Shown here: positions 47,407 through 57,245 of the stretch, one piece after another
How the letters are laid out: each line of letters begins with the position of its first letter
Numbering within the stretch: position 1 is the first letter of the stretch
NCBI RefSeq assembly: GCF_002001085.1
Contig: NZ_MUNU01000012.1
Location: 1-64,000, forward strand
Reading direction: 5' to 3'
DNA: 64,000 bases
From: Rhodanobacter sp. B05
GTDB lineage: Bacteria > Pseudomonadota > Gammaproteobacteria > Xanthomonadales > Rhodanobacteraceae
Position numbers and translations under genes: made by a program
Notes under the pieces: generated by a model
Told to the model about the DNA's origin: nothing
Databases searched by the model: none
The model's input: only the letters and a program-made list of their open reading frames with translations

Positions 47407-48774
47407 TCACTCGCCCGTCGCGGATTCCAGCGGCAACCACAGCTGCGCCACCGCACCCGCCGCGCCTTCGCGAGCGAGCAGGCTGACGCCGCCTTCGTGC
47501 GCCTCGACGATCTGCCGTACGAGTGCCAGCCCAATACCGGAGCCACCTGGCTTGGTGGTGAAGAACGGTACGAACAGGTTGTCGCTGAGCGGCGGGCCGG
47601 GGCCATCATCGACCACCTCGATCAAGCCGCGCGCTTCGTCGCGATACCAGCGCACGCTGACCTCGCCGCGCGGCGACGGCGCGGCTTCGACCGCGTTACG
47701 CAGCAGGTTGATCAACGCCTGTTCGAGCTGGTCGGCATCCGCCTGCACGATCAGCGCCACGCCAGTTTCGATGCGCACCGGCAGGCGCTGCTCCAGCCGC
47801 ACGACTTTCGCGACCAGCGCCGCCACATCCACGGCGCGCTTGTGCGGCGGCGGCAGCCGCGCGAGCTGGCTGTAGCCAGCAAGAAACCGTGCCAGCGCGC
47901 CAGCACGATTGCCGATCAACTCCAACCCGCCGCGAAAATCCTCGCGCCAGTCCTCGGGCAGCGGATCGCGCGCGACCAACGTCGCCAGCGTGCCGGCCAT
48001 CGACTGAATCGGCGCCAGCGAATTGTTCACCTCGTGGGCGAGCACACGCAGCAGCCGTTGCCACGCCTGGCGTTCCTCCTCGCGCAGCACGCGGTCGACG
48101 TCGTTGATCACCAGCAGGACGCCGCCGCGACCGCCGCTGCGCAAGGACGCGTGGCGGATCTCGAAACGGCCAGTACGGCCAGGGAACGCATGCGTGAGCA
48201 GACACGCAGCCGGCCCCTCCAGCAACGTCGCCAGCCCCAGCTCGGCCGCGCTCAGACCGAACAGGCGATGCCGCTCGTCGCCGAGCAATCGTTGTGCCGC
48301 CGGATTCAGCAGACGCAGGCGCTGGTTCTTGTCGAACACCAGCACCGCGCTGTCCAGCGCCGCCAGCGTCTTGCCCAGCAGGTGCGCCGATTCCTCGAAC
48401 TGAAGGCGTTCCTGCTGCAGGCGCTCGGCCAGCGCGTTGATGTCGTAGATCACATCGCCGAGCACGCCGCCCTGTACGCCACGCAAGCTGTAATCGCCTT
48501 CGCGCAACGCTTCGAGCAGGCCGGACAGCGTGTACAGCGGATAGGTCACGCGGCGCTCGTGCCAGCGCGCCAGCAACAAGGTCAGCACGATCACGGCGAT
48601 CGACAGTGCCCAGCGCAGCGAGACGTCCAGCGAACCGGACAGCAACACACCCAGACCAAGCAGCGCCGGCGTCGCCACCAGCAGGCTAACGGCCAGCACA
48701 CGCTGCCCGAAGCGCGGCATGTACCCGGCGCGCCGGTTGCGTGGATCAGCCGGCATCGGCATCGTCGGTCGCAT
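47407..48774 (-). CDS. NtrB/NtrY-type sensor histidine kinase with a minimal periplasmic loop
   Basis: The 455-residue protein has two membrane helices at about residues 26-46 and 54-70, separated by only about 8 residues, so it lacks an extracytoplasmic sensor domain. A HAMP-like linker (about 75-125), a PAS domain (about 130-225, LDSAVLVFDKNQRLRLLNPAAQRLLG), the H-box LAHEVNNSLAPIQSM (His near 246), N-box NLLRNAVEA, VVDDGPGPP and GGSGIGLAL follow. It is the last gene of the efflux operon and overlaps the regulator gene by 29 nt. The start is uncertain; ATG 48762 or ATG 48720 are alternatives. Such short-loop kinases often receive their signal through a partner transporter. Confidence 0.88.
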   Translation of the reverse strand: MRPTMPMPADPRNRRAGYMPRFGQRVLAVSLLVATPALLGLGVLLSGSLDVSLRWALSIAVIVLTLLLARWHERRVTYPLYTLSGLLEALREGDYSLRGVQGGVLGDVIYDINALAERLQQERLQFEESAHLLGKTLAALDSAVLVFDKNQRLRLLNPAAQRLLGDERHRLFGLSAAELGLATLLEGPAACLLTHAFPGRTGRFEIRHASLRSGGRGGVLLVINDVDRVLREEERQAWQRLLRVLAHEVNNSLAPIQSMAGTLATLVARDPLPEDWREDFRGGLELIGNRAGALARFLAGYSQLARLPPPHKRAVDVAALVAKVVRLEQRLPVRIETGVALIVQADADQLEQALINLLRNAVEAAPSPRGEVSVRWYRDEARGLIEVVDDGPGPPLSDNLFVPFFTTKPGGSGIGLALVRQIVEAHEGGVSLLAREGAAGAVAQLWLPLESATGE

Positions 48775-50152
48775 CGCGCAGATCGTGTTTTTCCAATCGC
48801 CGATACAGCGACTGACGGGTGATGCCCAGCGCGTCGGAGGCGCGCTGCAGGTTGCCGTCGTGGCGTTCCAGAGCGCGCTTGACCAGCCAGCCTTCGGCCT
48901 GCTCCAGCGTCATGCCGTCGATGTCCTGCGCCGACTCGGCGGCATCGCCAAACGCCAGCGCCGCGGCGCTCACCTGGTCGTGCTCGGCCAGCAGCGCCGC
49001 GCGTTCCATCAAGTGCTGCAGCTCGCGCACATTGCCAGGCCAGCGCCATGCCACCAGCGCGCGTTCGGCCGACGACGCCAGCCGCAAACCATGACGACCG
49101 TAGCGTTGCGCGCTGCGCGCGAGGAACGCGCGCGCCAGCGGCAGGATGTCCTCCGCGCGTTCGCGCAGCGGCGGCAGGCGCACTTCCAGCGTGTTGAGGC
49201 GGTACAGCAGATCCTTGCGGAAGCGGCCGGCGGCGACCTCGGCCTGCAGATCCGCATTCGTCGCCGATACCAACCGCACATCAGCAGTCTGAGTACGTGA
49301 CGAACCGAGTCGCTCGAACTCACCATCCTCCAGCACGCGCAGCAACTTCGGCTGCTGCGATGGCGGCACATTGCCCACCTCGTCCAGGAACAGCGTGCCG
49401 CCGTCGGCCAGCTCGAAGCGGCCGATACGCTCGCTCTTGGCGTCGGTGTAGGCGCCGCGCACGTGACCGAACATCTCCGACTCGAACACACTTTCGGCGA
49501 TGCCGCCCATGTTGACCTTGACCAGCGAACGCGCAGCGCGCGCGGAACGCTGGTGCAGCAACTGCGCGATCACGCCCTTGCCGGTGCCGTTCTCGCCCAG
49601 CACCAGCACGTTGGCGTCGCTGGGCGCGATGCGCTCGACCAGCGCCAGCACGCGGCGCATTGCCGGCGATTCGGCGATGAAATCATCGTCTGCCTCGCCG
49701 CGCAGCAACGCGTTCTCCGCCTCCAGCCGACGCTGCCTACGTGCACCCTCGCCCAGCGCGATCTGCGCGCGCAGCACGCCGAGCAGACGCACGTTGTCCC
49801 ATGGCTTTTCGATGAAGTCGGCGGCGCCACGACGCATCGCCTGCACCGTCAGCGGCACGTTGCCCCACGCCGTCATCGCCACCACCAGCAGCTCGGGCGC
49901 GAACTGGCGCAGACGCTCGAGCAGATCCAGCCCCTCTTCGCCCGAGGTGGTATCGCGGCTGTAGTTGCAGTCGATCAGCGCACAGGCGAACTCGCGTTTG
50001 CGCACCGCCTCCAGTGCCGCCGCCGGATCGGCCACGCCCACGCTGGCGATGCCCTCGGACTTCAGCAGCAGCCGCAACGCCTCGCGTACGTCGGCCTGGT
50101 CGTCGGCAAGCAGTACGGTGGGGTTCGCTTCGCGTGGCATGCCTTCGTTCAT
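48746..50152 (-). CDS. NtrC-family response regulator with GAYTDA loop
   Basis: The 468-residue protein has a receiver domain (DD at 17-18, phosphoacceptor Asp 61 in LIDCN, Thr 94, Lys 116), a AAA+ domain (Walker A GENGTGKG at 186-193, Walker B LFLDE near 254-258) and a C-terminal Fis-type helix-turn-helix (ASDALGITRQSLYRRLEKH). The sigma-54 contact loop reads GAYTDA (233-238) instead of GAFTGA; the Tyr change is tolerated in some activators, and the Asp form is common in one subgroup I remember. A canonical sigma-54 promoter stands before the operon, so it probably still activates sigma-54. The start is ATG 50152 or, 12 nt later, ATG 50140. Confidence 0.9.
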   Translation of the reverse strand: MNEGMPREANPTVLLADDQADVREALRLLLKSEGIASVGVADPAAALEAVRKREFACALIDCNYSRDTTSGEEGLDLLERLRQFAPELLVVAMTAWGNVPLTVQAMRRGAADFIEKPWDNVRLLGVLRAQIALGEGARRQRRLEAENALLRGEADDDFIAESPAMRRVLALVERIAPSDANVLVLGENGTGKGVIAQLLHQRSARAARSLVKVNMGGIAESVFESEMFGHVRGAYTDAKSERIGRFELADGGTLFLDEVGNVPPSQQPKLLRVLEDGEFERLGSSRTQTADVRLVSATNADLQAEVAAGRFRKDLLYRLNTLEVRLPPLRERAEDILPLARAFLARSAQRYGRHGLRLASSAERALVAWRWPGNVRELQHLMERAALLAEHDQVSAAALAFGDAAESAQDIDGMTLEQAEGWLVKRALERHDGNLQRASDALGITRQSLYRRLEKHDLRDATDDADAG

Positions 50153-50168
50153 CCTTGCAGTGTAGTGG

Positions 50169-57218: not shown

Positions 57219-57229
57219 GGGCCTGTCAC

Positions 57230-57245
57230 AGCAAAGCCCGTGCCA
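57230..57245 (-). promoter_or_regulatory. Sigma-54 (-24/-12) promoter of the efflux operon
   Basis: TGGCACGGGCTTTGCT on the minus strand matches the consensus TGGCACG-N4-TTGCW at every fixed position. The GG (-24) and GC (-12) doublets have the required spacing. The predicted start, near 57219, falls next to the adaptor ATG at 57218. The operon it drives encodes its own NtrC-family activator. Confidence 0.85.

Follow-up and report, generated by a model that had tools for sequence, protein, structure and literature searches.

What switches on a six-gene transporter operon in Rhodanobacter sp. B05, and where does its message begin? The operon lies on the minus strand of a 64,000-nucleotide (nt) stretch of contig NZ_MUNU01000012.1, called the window below, and its genes are ordered as adaptor, ATPase, permease 1, permease 2, activator and kinase. 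The original prediction described six genes on one strand ending in an NtrC-type regulator and a kinase. All of them are present, with overlaps of 4 nt between ATPase and permease 1 and between permease 1 and permease 2, and of 29 nt between activator and kinase; the gaps are 16 nt from permease 2 to activator and 167 nt from adaptor to ATPase. This anatomy, its conservation and the spacing between promoter and ATG are established from the sequence. Our reading, to which we give a probability of about three in four, is that this is a self-activating envelope-transporter operon, read by sigma-54, with its own activator on upstream dyads, a leaderless mRNA and a kinase linked to the permeases.

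The adaptor gene is preceded by a sigma-54 -24/-12 element, TGGCACGGGCTTTGC (57231-57245, minus strand), an exact match to the consensus. It has the form TGGCAC-N5-TTGC with the invariant GG and GC by which a sigma-54-dependent promoter is recognised, and with one further base (TGGCACGGGCTTTGCT, 57230-57245, minus strand) it is the sole exact match to TGGCACN5TTGCW within the 64-kilobase (kb) window. The exact promoter claimed ahead of the adaptor is thus present. When up to two mismatches were allowed, the window had 45 sites against a mean of 40.4 in shuffled sequences. Because the mismatch-tolerant motif is no commoner than in shuffles, a single site tells little by itself, and the case for the promoter rests on conservation. 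The whole genome carries 37 matches to the strict pattern TGGCAYN5TTGC against 6 for the reversed pattern, and one match to the RpoN DNA-binding domain (Sigma54_DBD, 232 bits).

We sought the adaptor in 147 genomes of the same family and took matches down to about 35% identity with their upstream regions. The loci studied (numbered with L below) were 145, which gave 122 rows when identical 60-mers were merged and loci with no usable ATG or less than 60 nt upstream were excluded. The element starts 26 nt (14 rows), 27 nt (69) or 28 nt (7) before the adaptor ATG, that is, in 90 of the 122 distinct upstreams; among the remaining 32 it is farther off in five and absent by the strict pattern in 27. 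By row label, it is borne by 55/61 same-family rows and 35/59 named rows. The adaptors behind it have identity to the window adaptor as low as 36%, and the named genomes include Rhodanobacter, Frateuria, Dyella, Dokdonella, Lysobacter, Stenotrophomonas, Xanthomonas and one Woeseiaceae. Conservation of the motif in orthologous operons had been set in advance as a test of the promoter, and it was confirmed by these counts.

Two arrangements were seen beside this main pattern. At L044 / L269 (G091) the regulator and kinase are directly upstream of the adaptor, the ATPase and permease are on the opposite strand, and the element is still 26 nt before the ATG. Small related membrane proteins (MKFES/MKFEA...) stand behind an exact TGGCACN5TTGC at L081, L090 and L227; those of the own genome have 67 and 69 amino acids (aa).

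RNA polymerase with sigma-54 starts transcription about 12 nt past the C of the -12 GC. Combined with an element at 26-28 nt, this distance would place the transcription start on the first base of the ATG or 1-2 nt ahead of it; for the window adaptor, whose ATG occupies 57218-57216 (minus strand), the calculation predicts position 57219 or 57218 (start and ATG together 57216-57219). The adaptor mRNA should then be leaderless, with a leader of 0-2 nt. It is well supported by sequence comparison that this ATG is the true start: all 21 diverse adaptors that were aligned keep M1 and D2, and codon 2 is GAT in 56, GAC in 33 and GTA in one (n = 90). A Shine-Dalgarno 4-mer occurs ahead of 3/90 adaptors versus 50/90 ATPases of the same loci, and none was found ahead of the window adaptor. 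Hybridisation energies with the Shine-Dalgarno sequence (median -2.2 for adaptors, -4.3 for ATPases) were noisy and pointed in the same direction.

Might the operon be driven by sigma-54 and autoregulated, and still have a normal leader, with the start elsewhere or at a second upstream promoter and the close spacing as mere compactness? We regard this as unlikely. The spacing is fixed within 3 nt across 90 distinct upstreams in which most flanking bases are variable, Shine-Dalgarno-like 4-mers are nearly missing as described, and a scan of 57180-57480 found no sigma-70-like promoter. For a normal leader speaks that the +1 of the adaptor is predicted from spacing only, and that an in-frame stop within 60 nt leaves no earlier start than the ATG in just 22/90 upstreams (the stop is within 12 nt in 7/90). 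Leadered relatives with a visible Shine-Dalgarno-like sequence also exist. In Acidobacteriota, L162 and L190 have elements 41 and 44 nt before the ATG. In 274 genomes of the wider class, an adaptor match at E <= 1e-60 was found in just three besides the own genome (L109-L111), and in each of these the element stands about 48-50 nt ahead of the start, a GTG in L109; this locus was excluded from the loci counted as element-less. Because these three genomes carry leadered elements, leaderlessness is not general to the adaptor family. In favour of the main reading, on the other hand, two sigma-54 controls of the same genome have ordinary leaders: the element stands 69 nt ahead of the ATG at glnA and 60 nt ahead at a paralogous adaptor (predicted leader of 34 nt).

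Intermediate cases in Acidobacteriota are Edaphobacter, Granulicella and Terriglobus, where the element is 29-31 nt before the ATG, the leaders are very short and the -24 half is weaker in most. On the adaptor tree (75 rows, leaderless label in 44) the label needs 5 changes versus a shuffled mean of 24.0, so it is clustered but not confined to a single clade.

We also considered that leaderless sigma-54 starts are a genome-wide habit. In 41 related genomes, TGGCACN5TTGC plus an ATG at leaderless spacing gave 47 matches versus 18 at a spacing 7 bases longer, and two of these 18 are the adaptor itself through a second ATG. Examination of 30 of the 47 as loci showed five full-length family adaptors (L220, L222, L224, L236, L246) and eight others open for at least 180 aa, five with further in-frame upstream starts and three without (L231, L240, L247); the rest were short reading frames. 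The general habit was rejected on this result. At L240 a histidine-kinase gene from another family of the order (L240:85-1503, minus strand) has the element 27 nt before its ATG and an in-frame stop 36 nt upstream with no intervening start, and it is a candidate for a separate leaderless sigma-54 message.

Upstream of the element there are two copies of a dyad. The distal copy, CGTACGTTTCCGGACA (57318-57333, minus strand), matches TGTCCGN4CGGACA at 10/12 positions; the proximal copy, CGTCCGCTGGCGAACG (57298-57313, minus strand), matches at 9/12, is 20 nt from the distal one and has its centre 87 nt before the ATG. The pair scores 19. We examined 82 of the 90 element-bearing upstreams, with near copies and short ones removed. 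Exact GTCCG-N4-CGGAC was present in 27/82, and in ten mononucleotide shuffles any dyad word peaked at 4. A score of at least 10/12 to TGTCCG-N4-CGGACA was reached by 66/82 upstreams versus 2.3% of dinucleotide-based shuffles, and a tandem pair score of at least 18/24 by 60/82 versus 0.3%. The tandem spacing is most often 20 nt (30/60), and the proximal centre is at a median of 107 nt before the ATG (range 75-192). The tandem dyad is probably the binding site of the operon's own activator. Neither the dyad nor the leaderless spacing figured in the original prediction. In Acidobacteriota, 6/14 loci have a dyad of 10-11 of 12, 107-113 nt before the ATG, five of them in Edaphobacter, Granulicella or Terriglobus, while L188 scores 9. 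The probable activator site is thus seen in two phyla.

The presumed activator is an NtrC-type response regulator and enhancer-binding protein of 468 aa (48746-50152, minus strand), with receiver, sigma-54 AAA+ and Fis helix-turn-helix (HTH) domains (Response_reg, Sigma54_activat, HTH_8) all above Pfam cut-offs. Against equivalog models, the PEP-CTERM response regulator and NtrC were best, both below cut-off, as were 25/25 of the models listed. Among 80 loci from named genomes, which are the best of a longer list, a regulator homologue was seen by eye downstream in at least 25, with a kinase alongside in 18; many of the others end before the operon does. We extended 20 loci by up to 17 kb, 15 with the leaderless element and 5 without. 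An activator homologue was in the cluster in 10/15 of the former versus 0/5 of the latter (Fisher p 0.03). Three of the remaining element-bearing stretches (L251, L263, L264) are still in permease genes or a second ATPase near their end, in L256 and L257 nothing related was visible, and one of the element-less stretches (L258) spans only 3 kb.

These counts bear on another explanation, that the dyads bind a different regulator, the promoter is activated in trans and the NtrC-type protein next to the transporter genes acts on targets elsewhere. Four strong activator-domain matches in the genome offer candidates for such a role; L065 and L066 carry the element and no local activator was detected in the sequence examined; the dyad search of the own genome was uninformative (38 one-mismatch matches versus 105 for the reversed-pattern control, no perfect match); and the pairing of activator and dyad is predicted from sequence only. 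On the other side, the activator homologue keeps company with the element as just counted, and the dyad at 10/12 or more, so frequent in element-bearing upstreams, is in 0/8 gammaproteobacterial relatives without the strict element (L062, L063, L067-L070, L151, L187). We judge activation in trans to be quite improbable. Autoregulation of the operon, in contrast, is a well-supported prediction, because the regulator co-clusters with the element and a conserved tandem dyad lies upstream. That the operon feeds back on itself, as originally proposed, gains this support at the level of sequence.

In eight Verrucomicrobiota loci the regulator and/or kinase is upstream of the adaptor. At the Verrucomicrobiota loci L167, L168, L172, L179, L183 and L191, where these two genes lead the cluster, the regulator gene is preceded by a similar sequence starting with ATTGAC; upstream of these regulators the one loose -24/-12 match lies in L167, at a distance of 427 nt.

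The kinase is NtrB-type, of 455 aa (47407-48774, minus strand), with HATPase_c and PAS_4 above cut-off and HisKA below, and two transmembrane segments with nearly no loop between them. By a simple hydropathy scan, the window kinase and 25/33 homologues have these segments separated by 11 residues or fewer; seven homologues show one merged segment and one fragment shows none. By this hydropathy estimate, the minimal external loop agrees with that of Bce-type kinases. Because the kinase is almost without a periplasmic loop, analogy suggests that it senses through the permeases, as in Bce systems. There is nearly an even chance that it instead uses its PAS domain or helices to read a signal from the cytoplasm or membrane, which would leave the rest of the circuit unchanged. 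The PAS_4 match argues for that, and the tie of kinase to permease consists of gene order and topology only. The near-absent periplasmic part and the repeated linkage to FtsX/MacB-type permeases fit the Bce design, and BceAB-S is among the fold matches of permease 1, though not the best.

Taken as a self-activating operon, the circuit would run as follows. A signal at the permease or membrane would change the state of the permease and switch the kinase, in which no periplasmic sensor domain is evident, as BceAB does with BceS; the kinase would phosphorylate the NtrC-type activator; the phosphorylated activator, on the tandem dyads, would open the promoter for sigma-54 RNA polymerase; the mRNA would begin at the adaptor AUG, with a leader of 0-2 nt, and be translated leaderless; and the levels of pump and sensor would rise together. 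Activator binding, start site and sensing route are the steps that we infer here.

Several points weigh against this circuit. The leaderless claim depends on the general sigma-54 start distance, with the +1 predicted from spacing. Shine-Dalgarno 4-mers are also rare at regulator starts (2/19) and kinase starts (0/8); because the window regulator and kinase genes closely trail or overlap the preceding gene, the contrast of adaptor versus ATPase is the informative one. A C at -1, found in 85/90 adaptors, was tried as an initiator signal and demoted, since ATPase starts show C in 67/90. The dyad is below 10/12 in 8/14 Acidobacteriota loci, including the leadered L162 and L190, and in 8/8 Verrucomicrobiota loci. 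No activator homologue lies within the sequence examined at L065 and L066, in spite of the element. The L1 loop of the regulator, which contacts sigma-54, reads GAYTDA and departs from the exact GAFTGA. GA[FY]TDA is present in 41/41 regulator homologues (GAYTDA 21, GAFTDA 20) and likewise in the ten regulators of the extended loci, and because of this conservation we take the loop as working; an F-to-Y change in GAFTGA is listed for a validated activator (PMC3162934). Finally, the named loci were selected as the best ones, and the relatives in all counts share kinship and are hence non-independent.

A broader proposal is that selection has locked the sigma-54 promoter to the start codon at 26-28 nt in Lysobacterales and at least one Woeseiaceae, and that the resulting leaderless message opens a module that senses its transporter and amplifies itself, Bce-like yet built on NtrC and sigma-54, with its genes found again in Acidobacteriota and Verrucomicrobiota. 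We put this forward tentatively, as somewhat less than an even bet. If it is true, the locked promoter and AUG would unite activator-dependent promoters with leaderless translation, which are usually treated apart. The reading of the operon itself predicts a group of leaderless mRNAs made from sigma-54 promoters, in which selection acts on the distance from promoter to AUG, and this might help expression at times when the usual initiation of translation is hampered. With it the little-studied ADOP-like permeases gain a defined circuit of promoter, probable activator site, regulator and kinase.

The transporter part of the operon begins with the periplasmic adaptor of 417 aa (55965-57218, minus strand), of the RND_mfp / HlyD family (TIGR01730 114.7 bits, cut-off 94.9; HlyD_3). 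The ATP-binding cassette (ABC) ATPase is a separate subunit of 254 aa (55033-55797, minus strand) with ABC_tran; its top NCBIfam models are DarD, MacB and LolD, each under cut-off. Permease 1 (816 aa, GTG start, 52586-55036, minus strand) and permease 2 (806 aa, 50169-52589, minus strand) are duplicated FtsX/MacB-type proteins. With the ADOP model (TIGR03434, cut-off 622.3 bits) permease 2 scores 644.3 and permease 1, which is ADOP-like, 614.8, slightly below. The AlphaFold2 model of permease 1 (mean pLDDT 84.9) has eight long helices, counted by hand, in two one-plus-three repeats around two periplasmic domains. Its nearest folds in the PDB were YbbAP, MacB, a pneumococcal exporter and LolCDE, ranked above BceAB-S, and the best query TM-score was 0.42. 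The term "MacB-like pump" used for this operon needs two corrections: the ATPase is a separate gene, while MacB has its nucleotide-binding domain fused to the permease, and the permeases are duplicated in the ADOP manner.

A paralogous sigma-54 cluster (G000:C18:102606-127222; L101, L193) extends over about 25 kb, with all genes on one strand. Besides the leadered adaptor mentioned above it encodes an ATPase, half-length MacB-like permeases in six pairs, a DUF885 protein, and an NtrC-type regulator (loop GAYTGA) and kinase of its own. Because its paired half-length permeases match the first and second ADOP half, an ADOP chain seems to be two MacB-like halves joined into one.

Repeats lie within and around the operon. 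A repetitive extragenic palindromic (REP)-like inverted repeat enclosing (GGGATTC)n occupies the adaptor-ATPase gap (55840-55943, strand unassigned), and a second one is at 57334-57413, immediately upstream of the dyads; both have GTAGGAGCCCGCTCGCGGGCGATGC arms. Directly past the kinase gene there is a 14-bp tandem repeat (CTCACTCGGCTTCT) in eight copies (47281-47392). Further downstream, at 46479-47203, a PIN-domain protein is preceded by a small partner whose weak match to DUF6364 stays under the cut-off; the two are a possible VapBC-like pair.

The arrangement had been called not textbook; one correction is needed here. A 2025 paper (PMC12316311) reports that in Gammaproteobacteria, Opitutia and Bacteroidia predicted sigma-54 promoters are enriched before COG0577 (FtsX-like) permeases, and presents this as the first link of its kind, so the general link of sigma-54 with FtsX-type ABC permeases is already in print. 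Unlike the present case, we found no activator site or dedicated kinase given there for those permeases, and the words "leaderless" and "bEBP" (bacterial enhancer-binding protein) are absent from its main text. Transcription start maps that treat leaderless mRNAs and discuss sigma-54 (PMC3616915, PMC5243855, PMC3333780) do not describe sigma-54 leaderless messages in portions of their main texts, supplements aside; PMC3616915 assigns sigma-54 promoters by transcript class, and its supplementary tables could hold leaderless cases. In the literature searched (titles and abstract starts, few subscription journals, no supplementary tables) we found neither a dedicated regulator/kinase circuit of this kind nor conserved leaderless sigma-54 transcripts with such a locked geometry.

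Compared with known systems, the operon resembles MacAB-TolC in its adaptor, its FtsX-fold permease with MacB_PCD domains and its MacB/LolD-like ATPase, and differs in the separate ATPase, the fused double permeases, the sigma-54 promoter and the lack of a TolC-like protein among the six genes. With ADOP and E. coli YbbAP it shares duplicated permeases of about 800 aa; permease 2 passes the ADOP cut-off, and among PDB folds permease 1 is closest to YbbAP. The ADOP family is named for lacking an adjacent ATPase, whereas this operon includes both an ATPase and an adaptor, and its permease 1 is slightly below cut-off. The regulator has the REC-AAA-Fis HTH build of NtrC/NtrB-type sigma-54 two-component systems, with the L1 loop GA[FY]TDA, scores below cut-off for all listed regulator models and probably a single operon as target as points of difference. 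Bce modules (BceAB-BceRS) are similar in the FtsX-like permease with large outer domains, the ATPase and the two-helix kinase nearly without external loop. Their response regulator is OmpR-type, whereas that of this operon is NtrC-type and works with sigma-54, a periplasmic adaptor is added, and sensing by the permease is here a suggestion. The operon may be a Gram-negative counterpart of the Bce antibiotic-sensing modules.

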